From assembly GCA_947646735.1 (NCBI GenBank), contig CANTFK010000037.1, positions 62,001 through 126,000 of the forward strand: a stretch of 64,000 nt of DNA, given 5' to 3'. Origin of the DNA: Peronospora farinosa. Lineage: Eukaryota; Oomycota; Peronosporomycetes; Peronosporales; Peronosporaceae. The first letter of the stretch is position 1; the number at the start of each line of letters is the position of its first letter. This document shows, piece after piece, positions 20,692-35,470 of the stretch. The notes below the pieces were generated by a model. The model worked only from the letters and a program-made list of their open reading frames with translations. It was not told the origin of the DNA and ran no database searches. The translations under genes and the position numbers were made by a program.

Positions 20692-22002
20692 TGTGGTGGA
20701 GCGGGTTCTCAAAATTGTATGATGAGACCCCAAACCACTCACTGTGCCGGACTGCCGACTGTCGGAGGGGGTACCCCGATGCCGCTTATGAACCTTCTCT
20801 CACCTTGTGTACCCGTCGGCTGGCGGGTTGCACTCTTCGGAGGACTTGGTGAAGATGTAGACGTCTGCCTTGAGGGAGGTAGACCTGGGGGGCCTCGAGT
20901 GGATATGCTTCACTCGGTGGTCCGGTAGGTGGCCACTCGATCGACCTTGTCGAGAGTTGGCTTAGAGCCGAATTCTACAGGGGCGCTTGTCGTCCCTGGC
21001 CTTTTCCTTCTTGTTTCAGGGGTATTAACCACCTGACCTTTACGTTGCTTCCGGACCTTGATGTGAGGGAGACCGCTTCCGATAGCGGGTCTTGAGGGTG
21101 TTGCTACTCGAACGAGCTCACAGGCCAAATATATCCTGGAGTTCTATTCGCACTTGGACTTGCTACACAACTGTCTTTGACGGGGGGGCCAAAATATATC
21201 CCTTCCCGGAACAGTGAGTAGCTTAAAGCAAATTCTTCTTGGGTGACGGAGTCGTGCCACGTGGGGTTCCGCTCGCACTTGAGTCTAACCACACGTCTGT
21301 ATTCCAAGGGGGGGGGCCAAATATATCCCTTCCCCGAACAGGCGTGTGGCTAGACTCGAGTTCCTTTACAGCGCGACGAAGACTTGCCAAGTAGATCGCA
21401 AATTGAGTAGTATTCAATATAGTCTTATCCTTTTAACTCCTTTACTCTATCCTTGCCTGAAGCTCTGATTCCTTGCGTCGACTGTTCTGATCCTTTTATT
21501 AACTGGTCCGGAGTGGCTGAACCCCGAGGGGCCGAGGTCGATCGCCGGGACCCAGGTCTACCAACGAGGGACCGAGTCGACCAATGGGGGTGAGGGACCA
21601 TGGTCTACCAGCGAGGGACCGGGTCGACCAGTGAGGGACCAAGGTCGACCAACGAGGGACCGGGTCGACCAATGAGGGACCCAGGTCGACCTATGAGGGA
21701 CCCGGGTCTACCAACGAGGGGCCAGGTCGACCGATGAGGGGCCTGTTCGACCAATGATGGACCGGGTCGACCAATGAGGGCCATGGTCGACTCCCTTCGG
21801 TACCGGTTAAACAGTTCATGGTAATGACCTCTCCTTTGTTGTATTTCACATTCTCAGCCAACGGTCGCTTCACTTCGAGGTTCCCTTTATCTCCGGTACC
21901 TTCTCTCTGGTGCGTGGTCCCTTCTGTCTAGTCCACGCCCCTAGTCCCTTCAATTCTACTGATCCCTGGGCTCTTCACAATTTAGGAAATCACTTCACCA
22001 CA
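20692..22002 (-). repeat. Complete LTR
   Basis: 1311 bp from TGTGGTGGAGCGGG to CACTTCACCACA. It is near-identical in reverse to 16375-17697. It carries a GGTCGACC array at 21535-21795, with a small deletion (near 21590) relative to the copy at 19915-20185. Confidence 0.88.
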
Positions 22003-22297
22003 ACTTCAACTTCCAGATTTAAGTGTCGAAGGTGTGCCTCCGTAGTTCTAAGCTTTTGTTCAGCGCGGCTGTGAACAAAAATGTCATCAAAGTAGCTCGG
22101 TGCAAAATCGCGAAGTGTGCGAAGTACTTGTGTCACCTTCCGATTGAACGTATCTGGAGCTATCTTTAGACCTTGTGGCATGACTAACCACTCCCATGGC
22201 ATCCCGCTTGGAAAACTGACCCCAGTGAACGGAATGTCAATGTCCTTTATGAGGATCTGATAGAAGCCGTCTGTCAGATCTATGGCGCTGTAGAACT
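22003..22297 (-). pseudogene. 295-bp Gypsy RT fragment (copy 3)
   Basis: Same 295-bp piece as at 16080-16374 and 20397-20691, again between two LTR ends. The tandem order LTR-RT-LTR-RT-LTR at 19386-22668 suggests unequal recombination between LTRs. Confidence 0.92.
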
Positions 22298-22668
22298 TGT
22301 GGTGGAGCGGGTTCTCAAAATTGTATGATGAGACCCCAAACCACTCACTGTGCCGGACTGCCGACTGTCGAAGGGGGTACCCCGATCCCGCGTATGAACC
22401 TTCTCTCACCTTGTGAACCCGTCGGCTGGCGGGTTACACTCTTCGGAAGTGTTGGTGAGGATGTAGACGTCTGCCTTGAGGGAGGTAGACCTGGGGGGCC
22501 TCAAGTGGATATGCTTCACTCGGTGGGCCGGTAGGTGGCCACTCGATCGACCTTGTCGAGAGTGGACTTAAAGCCAAATTCTTCAGTGAGCTTGTCGTCC
22601 CTGGCCTTTTCCTTCTTGTTTCAGGGGTATTAACCACCTGACCTTTACTTTGCTCCCGGACCGTGAGG
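22298..22668 (-). repeat. Truncated LTR (mirror of 15713-16079)
   Basis: A 371-bp LTR start fragment joined head-to-head to the next LTR at 22668/22669. It is the inverted copy of the junction at 15712/15713. Confidence 0.84.
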
Positions 22669-25885: not shown

Positions 25886-27160
25886 ATGCCTATCAAGCCT
25901 AAGAAAACTTTGCTTACCAAGGCGCTGTTGGTCATCATACTCGTCGTTCGTTCTACCATGGGGTTGGCGACGGCAGATCTGCCACCAGAGGATGCCCTTC
26001 GCACCTCTCAGGCATCGGATACATTGGATATGGATCTGACACCTCCTGCCTCGAAACAGAAGAGGTACTTGAGGTCGGCCGCGGATGTGACGACAACCAG
26101 CACTGGTGAGTTGAGAAGACTAGTTCCTGATCTCTCGGGACTTAAGGAACTCGGAAGCTCTTTCGGAAAACAGGCGGTAGGTTTCCCTGCCAGACTGCGT
26201 CAAAGTGCTTCAGCAATCTACTCCAAGAGCATGACAAGAATTCGAGCGCAATGGTGGCTGTGGGTAAACAAACAAAAAGAACCTAAGGAGGCCTTCACAT
26301 TTCTGCAGCTCGGCAAATCGGGGAAAAATCCATTTGAAAACCCAAAGTTTCCCGTATGGAAATATATCGTCGAGAAAATTACGTCCAAGGAAGATGCGCC
26401 CAGAGTCATGTTCGAATCTATGGTTCACGCATTGGGAGATGAAGGTACACTGGACAGATTCCTAGCTCAAGCAATAAGTTCAATTAAGTTCGGGGACGTG
26501 GTTGAGAGTGTTTACAACTATCGACTCAAGCAGTGGCTCCAATCTGATTATAATTACACGCCGAAAAGAGTTTACAATCTTCTGGAACTCAACAAATATG
26601 ACAAGATCGGAGAAGTACCCGGCCGTCCAGAATTTAGCATGTGGGCTGCGTATAATTCCAAAAAGAAATCGACGAAGGAGGCTTTTAAGCTTCATAAAGA
26701 ATCAAAAAGAAGCACTATTCATCCTGATCTAATGAGGGCTCTAGCTAAAATCGGTGAAGCCGATGGCAACTATGAATTCGCTCAAGATCTGTTATACTTT
26801 CAGATCCAGTACTTGATAGAACATCCTTATTATCGAAAATCATCCTTCAAACTTTTTAAGCTTCAAGGGGAGGGAACATTAAATCCAACTGATCTGACTA
26901 CGGATCCGCTTGGAAGGCTTTGGGTTGACTACGTGTACATGAGAGCACAGGACGAAGATGGTTTTACTGGCTTGGGTGAAGTTTTTAAAAAACTTGAGTT
27001 GAGGGTTGGCCATAAAGCAGCCGTAGCTGTGATGAAAATGGTGCACAAGGACGGTTATTTCCTGAAATCGCTGGAGAAGGAGAAGCCTATCAAGGAAAAA
27101 GAAAATTTTGATTCGTTTCTGATGGACCTTCAAGAAAAGATGGCAAATGATCCCAAGTAA
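25886..27160 (+). CDS. RxLR effector with repeated W/Y-type modules
   Basis: Single open frame of 424 codons. Residues 1-27 form a basic start plus hydrophobic core (ALLVIILVV), a secretion signal. RYLR lies at residues 60-63, the RxLR motif for host targeting. No clear dEER follows, only GELRR at 74-78. The rest is alpha-helical and built of W/Y-like modules: WWLWV with VWKY (about 123-160), KQWLQ with MWAAY (about 215-256) and FKLFKL with LWVDY (about 321-349), each preceded by an A/F-x2-L-x-L helix. WY/LWY modules are the structural core of many Phytophthora and downy-mildew effectors. The protein is expected to be secreted and act inside plant cells. The host target is unknown. It is intact and lies 239 bp upstream of a core metabolic gene. 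Confidence 0.92.
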   Translation: MPIKPKKTLLTKALLVIILVVRSTMGLATADLPPEDALRTSQASDTLDMDLTPPASKQKRYLRSAADVTTTSTGELRRLVPDLSGLKELGSSFGKQAVGFPARLRQSASAIYSKSMTRIRAQWWLWVNKQKEPKEAFTFLQLGKSGKNPFENPKFPVWKYIVEKITSKEDAPRVMFESMVHALGDEGTLDRFLAQAISSIKFGDVVESVYNYRLKQWLQSDYNYTPKRVYNLLELNKYDKIGEVPGRPEFSMWAAYNSKKKSTKEAFKLHKESKRSTIHPDLMRALAKIGEADGNYEFAQDLLYFQIQYLIEHPYYRKSSFKLFKLQGEGTLNPTDLTTDPLGRLWVDYVYMRAQDEDGFTGLGEVFKKLELRVGHKAAVAVMKMVHKDGYFLKSLEKEKPIKEKENFDSFLMDLQEKMANDPK

Positions 27161-27399: not shown

Positions 27400-28704
27400 A
27401 TGACACGCGTGTATCTCGATGATAATGCTACGACGCCTGTGGAGCCCGCCGTAATGCAGGCATTACTGCCATATTTTGGTCCACAATTTGGCAATGCGTC
27501 TTCAACTTATGCACTTGGCCAAACCGCTAAGAAAGCGGTGGAGATGGCACGTACCCAAGTGGCATCAATGTTGGGCGCCTCTGACTCGAATGAAATTGTC
27601 TTTCTTTCAGGTGGTACCGAGTCAATTAATTATGCAATCAAAGGGTCAGCACTTGCAGCAAAACGTACGAGTGGACGTAACCACATTGTCACGTCTAGCG
27701 TCGAGCATGTGGCGGTGCTGGAGACGTGTAAATGGTTGGAGACACAGGGATTCCAAGTCACATACCTGCCTGTAAATAACTTTGGCTGTGTCCGGGTACA
27801 AGATGTACTGGATGCACTTACCGTACAGACGTGTGTGGTGTCCATTATGCTTGCTAACAATGAAGTTGGATCGTTGCAGCCAGTTGCAGCAATTTCTCGA
27901 GCAGTGCGACAATTCGTCGTGGACGAGGAGAATCGGCTACCTATTGTCGTGCATACAGACGCCAGTCAAGCGATTGGTAAAGTACGTGTGAATGTCGTGG
28001 CGCTTGACGTGGATTTGGTGACAATGGCGGGCCACAAATTCTATGCGCCAAAGGGTGTCGGCGCTCTCTACGTCCGTAAAAGCATGGTACTGGACACGAT
28101 AATTCACGGAGCATCGCAGGAAAACGGACGTCGTGGTGGTACAGAGAATGTGGGACTAGTGGCGGCACTGGGCCAGGCTTGTGCGCTTGTAGAGAAGAAC
28201 TTGCACGAGTACGCTGTCATCATGCAAGAGAGCAGGGCGTTCCTCCTCGAGCAGATCCAGAAGCACTGCAGTCTTACGAATGTTAGCTACCAGGTAAACG
28301 GCCACCCAGAACTTTCTCTGCCTAACACGCTCAGCATTAGCTTTGAAAACATTGACGCATCGCGTCTCCTCGACTGTGAGTCTTGTATACTTGACTCTGG
28401 TGGTTATAGGATGCTGATCTTGGTGTTGCCTGTGTAATGAACAGTGATAGAGGCCGACGGCGTCTATGCAAGTGCAGGATCAGCGTGTCATAGCCACAAG
28501 CAAGACAGGACTACCGAACAGGAAAAGAACCTAGACCGCGACGGGAAACACATTACTACCATTTCGCACGTGCTAGCTGCCATGCACGTGGCTCCTGAGT
28601 TTGCCAAAGGCACACTGCGCTTGTCTGTGGGTCGCTCTACCACGCAGGAAGAGGTACTACACGCTGCTAACGCGATTCACAAGGCCATCCAGCAACTGCT
28701 GTAG
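27400..28704 (+). CDS. SCLY: Selenocysteine lyase / cysteine desulfurase-like enzyme, one intron
   Basis: Two exons, 27400-28375 and 28445-28704, give 411 residues. The 69-bp intron (GTGAGT...AACAG) restores the frame across RLLD and IEADGVYASAGSACHS. This is a class V PLP aminotransferase fold: DDNATTP at the start, SGGTES, SSVEH, MLANNE, HTDASQ (Asp187) and GHKFY (Lys213, the PLP Schiff base). The active Cys340 lies in SACHS. ACHS plus the ending LRLSVGRSTT resembles animal selenocysteine lyase more than mitochondrial NFS1 (SSGSACTSASLE), so selenocysteine to alanine plus selenide is the likely reaction; cysteine desulfuration is the alternative. No mitochondrial presequence is seen, so it is probably cytosolic. 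It is convergent with the ATG6 gene, 222 bp away. Confidence 0.88.
28376..28444 (+). other. Intron of the selenocysteine-lyase-like gene
   Basis: 69 bp with donor GTGAGT and acceptor AACAG, phase 1. Without removal the frame stops at 28437. Removal joins two parts of the enzyme with correct family spacing. Confidence 0.88.
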
Positions 28705-28926: not shown

Positions 28927-30974
28927 TCAATAGCGCTTCGAAATCCAAGCCAAGAGCCATTTAAGATGCGTGAGCATGTACTTGAGCGCTCGAGTCCACT
29001 GCTCATCGTTACCAAGAGAAATAGGCAGACCACCGATTATGCCGCGCTCCACCTTGTACGGGAACTTGAGCAATGGCTCTTCTTTCATGGCACGACGACC
29101 TGCGTCCTCCACGCACTCGAGAAATAGAATCATAGCTTGATTGAAGCCTCGACGTCGGAACATGCCACCGTCGCTGTACAGACTGTACTCTTTTCCGTAC
29201 ATATTGACTACACGGGAGAAGCTCCCCCGAGGCACGAGACGATTACGTGAAAATTCAAACCCGGCACGGTCAGCGATAGTTGCCAGCAACAACACTGCCT
29301 GGCCCATTGCCGCGTTAATTTCGACCCACTCCACCGGTTTAGACGGTAACCTGCCAAGTCTCAGTCCATTAATGGTACCGAACAGACCGTCGTGCCAGAT
29401 GTGGAAGACATCGTTGCACACGTTGTAGCGCTGGAGACGGCGCAGCATATCTGATGCATGCACTGCAAATACACCCACCGATTGACGCTCGTCGCGACTC
29501 AGACCCAATAAATGCTGCAAGAACGCTCCTTCAGCAAACGTGCCATGAACCAAACGCTCGAGATCTATTCCAGTTGACCAAAGCTCACGCCTCTTAGCTG
29601 TCACTTGTACAGTTTCATCCTCGATGGCCTCTAACTCAGCCTTTAGTTGCCGCTCTTCCTCCTCCAAAGCGCAAAGCTCTGGGTCAAGGTGCCACTCATC
29701 GGCATTGTAATCTCCGTCGTCGCTCAATGTTCGTGCTGATGCCCGCTCTTCGTCTGCAAATTGAGCCATAAAATCCTCGTATTGAGCTCGGTCCTCCTCC
29801 AGTTCGTTCAATACTCTGCAGTAGTCATCAGCAGAAAAATGTATAATGATAAGCTCTTCTCAAAGGTGGCACAAAAAGCAGGTGCTCACTTACTGAGTAA
29901 ATCGGGACAGCACCTTCGTTTCACAGTCATGACAAGTAGGCAACCTCTTTTTGTGTAGAACCGTGCTGTAGACAACAACCATGCCACATTATGATGTATT
30001 CTTAGGGAAAAACATAATTGTATTCGCCGTACCTGCAGTCCAGTAGTTCCTGGAACCAGCTGAGATCACTGCCATCAATGCGGCGCTTTCGCATCAGACA
30101 TCTTCGACGAACAACACGCTCTTGCGACATTGCATCAGCCTTTTCAGTCTTTTTGGCAGTTCCACTTAGCTCGCCACCTTTCACTGCCTCCTCTCGATGC
30201 ACATGAGGCTCCTCCAGCTTGACAAAATCTACGTGCAAGGATGCATATACCCACCCATCTTCATCGTAGTGCGGGCTGGAGTAATCCACCTCCCAGTCCG
30301 ATATCCACAAGTGCGGCTTGTTCAGTAGTCGCGCCGGCACCACATCTGCAATGTTTTGTCCGATATCTCCACGATTGCAGCTCGTGTAAGCTGCAATTCT
30401 ATTGACGAGGTCGAATTCAGCAGGCACCCAAACATCAACATCACTGCTGTAGTCCAGACGTTGTCGTTCCCACACAATCTCGGGGACGATAGCCGACGTT
30501 TTTTGCTACTGTTGCTGTGTGACTTAGTGAAGACCTGGCTGCTATATGTGATACTTCTTCCTCTTCATCTGCATCTATAGCCTCTCCAGCGTCCGTTCTT
30601 TCTGTAAGTCTTGGCATCTGGTCTTCCTCGTCTTCTACCTTGCTGTCTCGTTGCTCGGACACCTCCGACGGGTGCTCGTAGGCCACCGGTCGAAGCTTCA
30701 TGATCTTCTCCTCAATAGACACTGGACTATGTTGGAATTTGAGTAGTGCACCACATTGGTGGCAAGTGAACAAGCTCTTCCCTTCCATAGCGACGCGTCT
30801 GGCGTTACGCGCAGGACTTTTGGCGTATGGCGAGAAGGACGCACCGACAGATGAAGGTGCTGGAGATGAAGAAAAAGCAGTCAATGTAGATCCACCATGA
30901 GCACCAATTGTGGCTGGAGGTCGTGATAATGCCGTAATTATCTTAGGCGGATGCAACGAGTCATTGCTGCTCAT
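28927..30974 (-). CDS. ATG6: Beclin-1/ATG6 with an inserted dysferlin (DysF) domain
   Basis: Proposed exons on the minus strand: 30974-30555, 30505-30033, 29965-29894 and 29815-28927 (617 residues). Introns of 49, 67 and 78 bp all have GT-AG ends and keep the frame. The first CxxC (TCHQC, Cys71/Cys74) and second CxxC (TCHDC, Cys309/Cys312) match the two CxxC pairs of Beclin. Coiled coil about 324-410. The evolutionarily conserved C-terminal domain has FHIWHDGLFGTINGLRLGRL at 459-478, PVEWVEINAA and ALKYMLTHLKWLLAW. Between the CxxC pairs exon 2 encodes a DysF domain: WERQR at 152-156, WISDWEVDYSSP at 207-218, DEDGWVYAS at 221-229 and VVRRRC at 271-276. Beclin scaffolds the VPS34 lipid kinase complex in autophagy; DysF domains bind membranes (TECPR1, peroxins). 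A BH3 segment is not recognisable. The first junction is the least certain. Confidence 0.85.
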
Positions 30975-31318: not shown

Positions 31319-31433
31319 ATGACCAGTTCGTCTTTGTCCTCTTCAACAAGTAATGGTACTATAACTTTCTGCTTAGGAATCGAGGTAGCGACTGTAGCTT
31401 TTGACGCCAATGGAGCAGCGGAAGAGAAGAAAC
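31319..31433 (+). pseudogene. 5' piece of a split gene, probably the WW-domain gene
   Basis: ATG at 31319 opens a Ser-rich start (SSSLSSSTSNG), then ITFCLGIEVATVAFDANGAA, and is cut at 31434 by an LTR. No other host coding sequence lies between here and the WW exon at 33787, so it is the natural first exon of that gene. I do not recognise the family. If the LTR lies in an intron the gene could still be spliced; if not, it is broken. Confidence 0.45.
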
Positions 31434-33546
31434 TGTGGTGGAGTGGGATTCGCAAAATTGCTGATGCGATTCCAACTCTCCACTGGCGCCCGGACGACCG
31501 ACTAACGGAGGGGATACCACGATTCCGTGTGTATAGCCTTCCTCACCTTGTGTACCCGTCGGTAGGTCGGGTTGCTCTCTTTTCGGTGGACTTGAGTCGA
31601 TGTTGATCCTAATTGGGTTAGGGATAGGAGGTTTGGTTATCTTGTGGAAATCTTCACAAGATAAACCGAGTACTTGGTGTGATCTTCCCAATCGATCACG
31701 GTTATCCAATAAAACGAAGCTTGAATCTTCTGACCACTTGAGCAGAACCTTCTGACCACTTGATCCGTCCTGCACTTGCTTCGCCTTGTCCTACGTGTTT
31801 TATCTGCGTCCGATCGCAGTTGAGTTGTGTTGAGAGTTCTTGCAATCCCTGGCCAAACAATCCAGGGATATGACTTGCGTAGTGTGTAGGCTTCCTCGAG
31901 ACGTCGGGTGGCCAAAGAATCCAGCCCGGAAGAGAAGTCGACACGTGTATTAGAAGTAAAATTGAACTCTGTTTAGTGTTAACCAATCAAAACTCGAAAC
32001 CTACAATTCTGCCTATCTGTAGTCCAGGATCTATCACCACGTATCACCCTTTCAGGAAAAATCAGATCTCGATATGTGGTCCACCCCAAATGCCTTTGCC
32101 ATCCCGATCCATCGGCGATCTTGCCTTATCCTTGGATCGCGATCTGAACCAGATCGCGTATCAGCTCAGGATCGTGGTCGATCCATAATGCGTAATCCTT
32201 GTGAGTTGGATCGCGATCTAGGTCGGATCGCGGACCTACGTTGGATCGCGATTCTGAGTCGGATCGCGCTATACCTTGGATCGCGGTTCTGAGTCGGATC
32301 GCGCTTCTGAGTCGGATCGCGGTCTACCTTGGATCGCAGTCTACCTTGGATCGCGTTCAGCCTTGGATCGCGGTTCTGAGTCGGATCGCGCTTCTGAGTC
32401 GGATCGCGGTCTACCTTGGATCGCAGTCTACCTTGGATCGCGTTCAGCCTTGGATCGCGGTCCTGATTCGGATCGCGATTTTGATCGGATCGCAGTCTAC
32501 CTTGGATCGCGTTTAGCCTTGGATCGCGGTCCTGATTCGGATCGCGATTTTGATCGGATCGCAGTCTACCTTGGATCGCGTTTAGCCTTGGATCGCGGTC
32601 CTGATTCGGATCGCGATTTTGATCGGATTGCGGTCTACCTTGGATCGCCTTTTACCTTGGATCGCGGTTCTGTGTCGGATCGCGGTCTACCTTGGATCGC
32701 GGTCTACCTTGGATCGCGATTCTGAGTCGGATCGCGCTCAGCTTTGAATCGCGCTTCTGAGTCGGATCGCGGTCTACCTTGGATCGCGGTCTACCTTGGA
32801 TCGCGATTCTGAGTCGGATCGCGCTCAGCTTTGGATCGCGCTTCTGAGTCGGATCGCGGTCTGCCTTGGATCGCGGTCTACCTTGGATCGCGTTCAGCCT
32901 TGGATCGCGGTTCTGATTCGGATCGCGGTTCTGAGTCGGATCGCGATTCTGAGTCGGATCGCGCTCAGCTTTGGGTCGCGGTTCTGAGTCGGATCGCGAT
33001 TCTAAGTCGGATCACGCTCAGCTTTGGATCGCGTTCAGCCTTGGATCGCGGTTCTGAGTCGGATCGCGTTTTCCAAGTTGGATCGCGTTTTCTGCACAAT
33101 GTTTCGGGATCGATCCTTGATGTGTGATCCACATAACTTGGATCGCGATCTACAATTTATGAAAATTGTTTACTCGCTCCTCCACAGTGAAATAACAGAA
33201 TCACGGATCGCGGATCCACCTGAATACTAAGATTGCAGTGCGATCCAGACTTGGATCGCGGTGCTATCCAAACTCCATAGCGACACGATATGTATCTCGG
33301 ATCATGATTTGTCCATTACAATTTATTGAGGCCGCGATCCACACTTTGAGAAATTCCACTATTCCACATTCAAGTAAAGTCCGTACAAATTTAATACATC
33401 CAGTTGGATCAACCGATACTGGAACCAAGTATATCCAAGCGGTGATCTATTCCATGATAATCCAATATAACATGGAAATATGATCCATGCTACGATCAAC
33501 GGTACTTCCATTCGATCATCCATGAATTACGATCGACTCCACCACA
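31434..33546 (-). repeat. LTR of the GATC-rich family, apparently solo
   Basis: 2113 bp from TGTGGTGGAGTGGG to GACTCCACCACA. The first ~190 bp share the frame of the other LTRs (TACCGACGGGTACACAAGG in reverse), so it is the same superfamily. The middle is an array of GATCGCG units. No internal element sequence follows on either side. Flanking five bases (GAAAC and CCCAA) do not match. Confidence 0.8.
32080..33160. repeat. GATCGCG array in the LTR
   Basis: About fifty units of roughly 17-20 bp of the types TTGGATCGCGGTCTACC and GTCGGATCGCGATTCTGA, mixed into larger blocks of about 60-130 bp that are themselves repeated (for example near 32290-32400 and 32450-32620). The ORFs across the array exist only because the repeat lacks stops. 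Confidence 0.9.
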
Positions 33547-34250: not shown

Positions 34251-35470
34251 GTGGACCCTAGACGTCCACGAAACGATATCTCTAATAATCAGAACTGGGA
34301 ACACCAAGCGACAATCCGAAGAGAGCATGCGCCGCAGGTCATGGATGGGGACTTGAAACCGTGGCGCTTGTATGGTCTTGAAGGTGCTGTCGAAACCGAT
34401 CCACTGGAGGTCATGAAGGACCTTTTCACGCGATACCGTACAGTGAGAGGCAAGGCGACGAACAACGCATATACCGACGATGCGTTGCAGAGATCTTGCT
34501 GCCTGTATCAGGCGCTGGAATGCGAGCCGACGTGAAGGAACGTCCTTCACGTCCTGGTATGACGGTCGCGAGGGAACGCGTGATAGACACGCTATTGGCG
34601 ACCTGCGCCGGCGCATCTGTCGTATGACTTGTGACGAGTATCATCTTTGTTACGTCCACATTCATGAGGGATGTTAAACGTGCAACATGGGCAGATCGCG
34701 ACCGGTCCGGCAGGAATGGGACGACCTGGTGTGTACGCGGGGCATGCCCGATCATATTCCTCCATGAATCGCCCGTTGTGCGAGCAGCCTTCGGAGCTCC
34801 AGGTGTCCGAGCTACGGCTAGTGAAAGCGCATCCTTAAGATCGCTTTGGGCATTCACGTAGCCGAGGTCGTCAACCGTATAATCTGTATGCTCCCGAGCC
34901 TCGTAATAGGTGTCGGTCTCGGAGTCGCTCGGGAGGTCGTCGTGGTTTCGTTGCTCGGGAGCATTACGGCTCGCTAGATCGGAGATGGAAACGGCAGCGT
35001 CGATCGCGATCACCGTCTTTCTACGGAGCTCATAGTCCTCGACCACGTCCGAGACATCCTTGGTCAGCGTACTCGATGGCTCCCATGTATCGTCCGCCGA
35101 GGAATATCCCAACCAGCGAACCCTGTAATGTTTCTCGACACGCTTTTTCATGAGCGCCGAGTCATTAATCGGCGCCTGGAGCTTGTGTTTCTCGTGATCA
35201 ACAATACGGTCGACATTCCAGCGTCGCGCACCCGATGCATCGTTTAAGGGCGGAGGAGTATCACGATGGAAGACCTCTGGCGATGAGCACCAATTCTTGC
35301 AATTTAACGCCTGACCGTCGAATAAAGAGGTGCGCCTACTTTTCCCTGAAGCCAAGGAGTCGAAGAATGCCCTACTTGATGCTCGCGAGATGGCTGAGAG
35401 AGCTCAAGATCGTGCAGTTGCTGCAACTAAGGCTGCTAGGCGGACTCGACGTGAGCAGCAGATGTGGTAA
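34251..35470 (+). pseudogene. Element E: antisense ORF (broken)
   Basis: Plus-strand frames read WRLYGLEGA..., YRTVRGKATNNAY and ALQRSCCLYQALE (34350-34530). Then comes the conserved block REGTRDRHAIGDLRRRIC with CYVHIHEGC (about 34570-34676), and near the end an Ala/Arg-rich helix (NALLDAREMAERAQDRAVAA, about 35365-35425). The same blocks in the same order occur on the plus strand of element C. It lies opposite the chromodomain frame at 34426-35355. Stops and frame changes interrupt it. Function unknown; the Cys/His cluster suggests zinc binding. Confidence 0.6.
34426..35355 (-). pseudogene. Element E: Gypsy chromodomain end of pol
   Basis: Minus-strand frame with WNVDRIVDHEKHK, then HYRVRWLGYSSADDTWEPSS and DVVEDYELRRK, a chromodomain of the same type as in element C (VDRIVGHED, YRVRWLGFPPEQDTWEP). 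The integrase that should precede it is absent; upstream of 35355 only the helix part of the antisense ORF remains. The long open tail downstream of the chromodomain runs opposite to the plus-strand ORF and is probably a shadow. Confidence 0.8.

Follow-up and report, generated by a model that had tools for sequence, protein, structure and literature searches.

The 64,000-nucleotide window analysed here (Peronospora farinosa, assembly GCA_947646735.1, 46.85 Mb in 274 contigs; contig CANTFK010000037.1, positions 62,001–126,000, forward strand) carries a minus-strand locus for a Beclin/ATG6-type protein with a dysferlin (DysF) domain between its two CxxC pairs, referred to below as a DysF-Beclin (Table 1). 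Four proposed pieces of 420, 473, 72 and 889 nt, separated by gaps of 49, 67 and 78 bp that are all GT-AG, give when joined a continuous frame of 1854 nt that encodes a product of 617 residues. The domain order proposed in an earlier note made from the sequence alone (CxxC, DysF, CxxC, coiled coil, BARA) is borne out in this product and is common to its relatives in a 20-sequence alignment.

The Apg6/Beclin profile search of the product, which had been proposed beforehand as a check, finds both the coiled coil and the BARA domain. In the structure model of a relative (P0001), ranks 1–10 are all Beclin/Vps30 chains (best E 8.5e-17), and CxxC pairs at positions 71 and 322 of this protein give it the two-pair N-terminus of Beclin. 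DysF-Beclins share with Beclin 1, Vps30 and Atg6 the succession of two CxxC pairs, coiled coil and BARA, but differ from them in having DysF and a long linker that separate the pairs, and in an altered BARA aromatic finger. The finger is reported as a main membrane contact of human Beclin (PMC6358306); at its place, the aligned rows of Peronosporaceae, Globisporangium, Pythium and Albugo have M-F-R-R and those of Saprolegniales F/L-Q-R.

Pfam yields no DysF match in the window protein at E up to 1 and gives DysF-Beclins a plain Atg6 label, so that the domain goes unseen in annotation. The checks by DysF profile and structure prediction nonetheless support it: DysF is identified by its profile hit on the solved myoferlin DysF structure, by a structure model that has structural matches and is predicted to adopt the DysF fold, and by comparison with two DysF proteins encoded elsewhere in the genome. 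In the stacking core of tryptophan and arginine residues, W118, W122, W138, R159, R161, R165 and R167 are kept in 12/12 sequences and W116 in 0/12, in a set that left out the degenerate P0037; across 20 rows including P0037, five of the eight core residues are invariant, with W118 and R159 nearly so. At a cut-off of E 10, six of the 12 DysF slices match Pfam Pex24p, the profile of the Pex23/Pex30 family, the best of them with E 0.0059. This family shares the DysF domain with DysF-Beclins, but Pex30 is reported as an endoplasmic reticulum membrane protein (PMC12101078), unlike DysF-Beclins, which are Beclins by their other domains. Two DysF proteins of the genome that are not DysF-Beclins are encoded at L022 (2417–5578, plus strand; 1053 residues, DysF near the C-terminus, with what by eye look like PH, C2 and lipid-transfer-type repeats upstream) and at L023 (3948–5036, plus strand; 362 residues, DysF followed by a part that looks by eye like a coiled coil).

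Two protein searches returned 129 proteins, 38 of them oomycete by name. At E < 1e-10 the DysF profile matches 36 of these 38 and four further open reading frames (ORFs), 40 in all; the two named rows without a match are fragments (232 and 270 residues), and P0024 and P0078, among the 36, contain DysF only in part. Nothing in the rest of the 129 matches at E < 1, except P0037 (0.0018). The earlier note had this one oomycete fuse DysF to Beclin; the fusion is instead common to Peronospora, Phytophthora, Hyaloperonospora, Pythium, Globisporangium, Lagenidium and Albugo and to the Saprolegniales (Thraustotheca, Achlya, Saprolegnia, Aphanomyces). In a tree of 70 BARA domains, hand-picked from 179 proteins and with bootstrap values not fully settled, 22 rows of DysF-Beclin type (P0035 and P0037 included) are set apart by a branch supported at 100/100, which also speaks against a single-species event, and 15 rows of the paralogue ATG6a by another (100/99). 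P0035 and P0037 pair together (98/78) and are the first to branch within the DysF-Beclin group as drawn; their insert is degenerate and, by eye, partly DysF-like. A look for orthologues that keep DysF and Beclin in separate genes revealed none, 36 of the 38 named oomycete proteins carrying both; the separate DysF-free Beclin and separate DysF proteins of the P. farinosa genome are other genes.

The DysF-free Beclin, ATG6a, is encoded on contig C58 (P0130), with counterparts in other oomycetes. Like DysF-Beclin it has two CxxC pairs (in P0130 at either end of a spacer of ~160 residues), a coiled coil and BARA; unlike it, P0130 contains no DysF by DysF profile comparison, and the two are 32% identical over coiled coil plus BARA. 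Proteins P0130 to P0134 are 513–516 residues long and the DysF rows of Peronosporaceae 544–661, fragments and the 850-residue P0023 aside. PlATG6a of Peronophythora litchii is reported to have 514 residues, and its knockouts to be viable with impaired autophagy (PMC8836449). By this length it fits the DysF-free form better than the Peronosporaceae DysF rows, and P0130 is probably, as assigned by length only, of the PsAtg6a/PlATG6a type. Viable knockouts with impaired autophagy allow for a second Beclin that has different tasks. The main texts on PsAtg6a and PlATG6a contain neither ‘dysferlin’ nor ‘DysF’.

Searching the genome at the DNA level, which gives minimum counts, revealed at least nine copies of the locus: four on C11 (one being the window copy), one on C10 and two each on C141 and C142, as inverted pairs, plus a further decayed fragment at C10:64630–65196. 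Under a two-intron model the C10 copy alone is open throughout (1902 nt, 633 residues, one terminal stop). Exons 3–4 are interrupted by one internal stop in one C142 copy and by two in the other, and the five remaining copies, besides that of the window, are more damaged, with the 5′ part inverted in four. C141 (18.9 kb), C142 (19.5 kb) and C11 177–190 kb each hold two inverted locus copies ~9 kb apart, the result of palindromic duplication or an assembly effect. A short repeat at 31427–31500 of the window flanks the duplicated unit just upstream and makes up 31 of the 52 matches listed in the genome search for the locus.

The in-frame join of the exon model in the earlier note is upheld, as are, by comparison of the copies, its introns 2 and 3; the 49-bp intron 1 was not confirmed. 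Exons 1 and 2 are open through this stretch, with no stop, in the C10, both C142 and the C11:148 kb copies, and in the C10 copy and relatives it is a coding, Ser/Gln-rich run present in homologous proteins; its splicing would mend the frame but has no comparative support. Only the window copy, among the nine, has a frame-shifting indel here, together with a stop codon when read in the intact copy's frame, and it looks like a disrupted duplicate of the DysF-Beclin gene. Judged by its sequence outside this stretch, the window copy looks constrained, the ratio of non-synonymous to synonymous change (pN/pS) against C10 being 0.22 (16.5 non-synonymous and 22.5 synonymous differences over 632 codons), which suggests that the damage is recent or an assembly error or, less likely, that it is masked by a new intron. 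At the sites of introns 2 and 3, ORFs P0014 and P0019 (on contigs of 2268 and 2486 bp) show no interruption, their frames reaching from the first CxxC through the whole of BARA, as would fit spliced fusion transcripts, and we infer that they are spliced messages of relatives; P0038 and P0039, from the same source, continue at the site of intron 2 into other sequence.

Table 1 Features of the DysF-Beclin locus (positions in the 64,000-nucleotide window).
Feature	Position	Strand	Basis or remark
DysF-Beclin (ATG6b-type) gene, window copy	28927..30974	-	Joined pieces translate to Beclin; frame disrupted
First CxxC pair (CHQC)	30753..30764	-	C71/C74 nearly invariant, 20-sequence alignment
Proposed intron 1 (49 bp)	30506..30554	-	Coding in intact copy; frame-shifting indel and stop in window copy
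DysF domain	30077..30481	-	Profile match to myoferlin DysF; model and structural matches; W/R core
Conserved helix SDLSWFQELL after DysF, about at the end of the BH3 region	30041..30070	-	Predicted helix
Intron 2 (67 bp, GT-AG)	29966..30032	-	GT and AG in 9/9 aligned copies; missing from ORFs P0014 and P0019
Second CxxC pair (CHDC)	29923..29934	-	Alignment
Apg6 coiled-coil region, spans intron 3	29443..29940	-	Pfam PF17675, E 9.2e-17, residues 307–446
Intron 3 (78 bp, GT-AG)	29816..29893	-	GT and AG in 9/9 aligned copies; missing from ORFs P0014 and P0019
MFRR at the BARA aromatic finger place (human Beclin 1: FFW)	29152..29163	-	BARA alignment
BARA domain	28936..29436	-	Pfam PF04111, E 1.1e-59; six-frame search gives same place

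Convergent with the Beclin gene lies a gene for a class V aminotransferase (27400–28437, plus strand; PF00266, E 3.8e-58), presumably cysteine desulfurase-like, which is co-duplicated with it in whole or in part. The Beclin gene is also adjoined by a 424-residue ORF (25886–27160, plus strand) with a hydrophobic N-terminus and a match to Pfam PexRD54_WY (E 7.8e-10); from these sequence features it looks like a gene for a WY-type secreted effector. PexRD54 itself is reported to bind host ATG8 (PMC5025708). Chromo domain and reverse transcriptase matches at 34429–35355 and 21993–22409 (both minus strand) are probably retroelement remains near the locus.

The suggestion in the earlier note that DysF replaces the BH3 region holds in part: the conserved predicted helix SDLSWFQELL remains between DysF and the second CxxC, its tryptophan and glutamate invariant in 20 rows, and the end of the BH3 region thus looks remodelled, not simply deleted. 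This helix may be equivalent to BH3. Loss of Bcl-2-type control, which the note had thought possible, is not supported; a Bcl-2 family search of the genome found no match, but its controls were equally without one. Overall, the observation made in the note was confirmed in part and its interpretation is partly supported.

Sequence comparison and prediction show the order of the domains, the fold and conservation of DysF, the single tree group and the DysF-free paralogue ATG6a. The reading that we favour, with a probability a little better than even (about 0.55), is that ATG6b of an oomycete ancestor gained DysF, that DysF adds a lipid or membrane site to its complex while ATG6a serves other complexes, and that the copy in the window is a duplicate of this gene with a disrupted frame. 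The gain would have occurred in an ancestor of the sampled oomycetes, within the N-terminal part of one Beclin, between the CxxC pairs. In human Beclin 1, both CxxC pairs are reported to hold one zinc ion together, and in human VPS34 complex II the UVRAG C2 domain sits between this zinc finger and VPS15 and has the BH3 helix as one of its contacts (PMC13218723). If the oomycete pairs hold zinc in the same way, DysF would loop out of the zinc finger and, by analogy, lie at the base of the VPS34 complex, near the position of UVRAG C2 in human complex II. It may there form a second membrane-contact or lipid-binding site of the complex, and phosphatidylinositol 3-phosphate (PI3P) would thereby be made on particular membranes. 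Possible partners in such a complex are encoded in the genome, where two places match the ATG14/UVRAG family above cut-off; the same search gave matches below cut-off in 2/14 control genomes. The changed aromatic finger of BARA would fit membrane contact supplied partly elsewhere, and DysF may supply or tune this contact. Its ligand would most likely be a lipid other than sphingomyelin, with phosphatidic acid and ceramide phosphoethanolamine as candidates; the DysF of Pex30 is reported to bind phosphatidic acid through a distal cluster resembling that of TECPR1 (PMC12101078).

In the main rival, DysF acts at C2 only as a structural or protein-binding module, which takes the BH3-type contact to UVRAG C2 or an ATG14 part and has no lipid role. 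This is possible though doubtful. DysF lies between the CxxC pairs, beside the region that touches UVRAG C2 in human complex II (PMC13218723), and its stacking core is kept while the lipid-contact residues of TECPR1 are not; moreover, mean identity among ten Peronosporaceae rows is 0.93 in the first CxxC block and 0.91 in the helix plus second CxxC versus 0.66 in DysF. Against this, both DysF domains with a demonstrated direct role considered here, those of TECPR1 and Pex30, are reported to bind lipids.

For the window copy only, the favoured reading of a disrupted duplicate has to be weighed against a 49-bp stretch that has become a real intron in a gene that is still functional, which we regard as rather unlikely. 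Both lesions lie inside the single GT-AG stretch whose removal preserves the frame, and the constraint on the rest of the copy would be expected of such a gene, but the intact copy and relatives have coding sequence here, and in a low-complexity tract of this kind one event or an assembly error could produce both changes.

Far less probable is the proposal of the earlier note that a TECPR1-like sensor of sphingomyelin on damaged membranes was fused to Beclin, and it is not supported. The N-terminal DysF of TECPR1 is reported to bind sphingomyelin and to act as a sensor on damaged membranes, with twelve of its residues needed for recruitment (PMC10476172). As far as the uncertain loop alignment allows, eight of these (W77, C84, L88, I142, D143, K152, W154 and C157) are kept in 0/12 oomycete sequences, R76 and L89 in 4/12, K153 in 2/12 and S90 in 1/12, and these sequences lack a sphingomyelin-binding tip of the TECPR1 type. 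The other domains of TECPR1 are not found in the window protein by Pfam, and the TECPR1 sequence-profile score is 8.8 bits against 6.3 for the best shuffle. PF14360, which we take to cover both sphingomyelin and ceramide-phosphoethanolamine synthases and a match to which does not separate the two, has five matches at four places in the genome. In Pythium ultimum, Phytophthora infestans and P. capsici, the dominant sphingolipid is listed as ceramide phosphoethanolamine (PMC8624791).

That annotators joined separate DysF and Beclin genes is scarcely credible: an intron does separate the DysF exon from the second CxxC, but P0014 and P0019 have all five parts in unbroken frames, the first CxxC and DysF share one open frame in the C10 and C142 copies, and the domain order is common across oomycete orders, so that this reading is already contradicted in relatives unless the P0014 and P0019 contigs are misassembled.

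No description of a Beclin with DysF was found in the literature searched, which had most subscription papers outside it and is no proof; the earlier note, too, knew of none. DysF and Beclin are each known already, and what is new is their combination and its conservation across oomycetes. On a bolder and unlikely extension of the favoured reading, the scaffold of an oomycete class III PI3-kinase would itself read membrane lipid through its zinc-finger DysF and recruit PI3P synthesis without a separate receptor, the membrane role of the BARA aromatic finger having partly passed to DysF; if true, damaged or lipid-altered membranes could recruit PI3P synthesis directly. Beclin belongs to the core of a lipid-kinase complex widespread in eukaryotes, and the insertion between its cysteine pairs of a domain type that includes known lipid binders, common to the sampled oomycete orders, is a natural test of the role of this poorly ordered region and of whether the scaffold itself can aim PI3P production. 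With a DysF-bearing and a DysF-free Beclin in one organism, division of labour between VPS34 complexes becomes directly testable.
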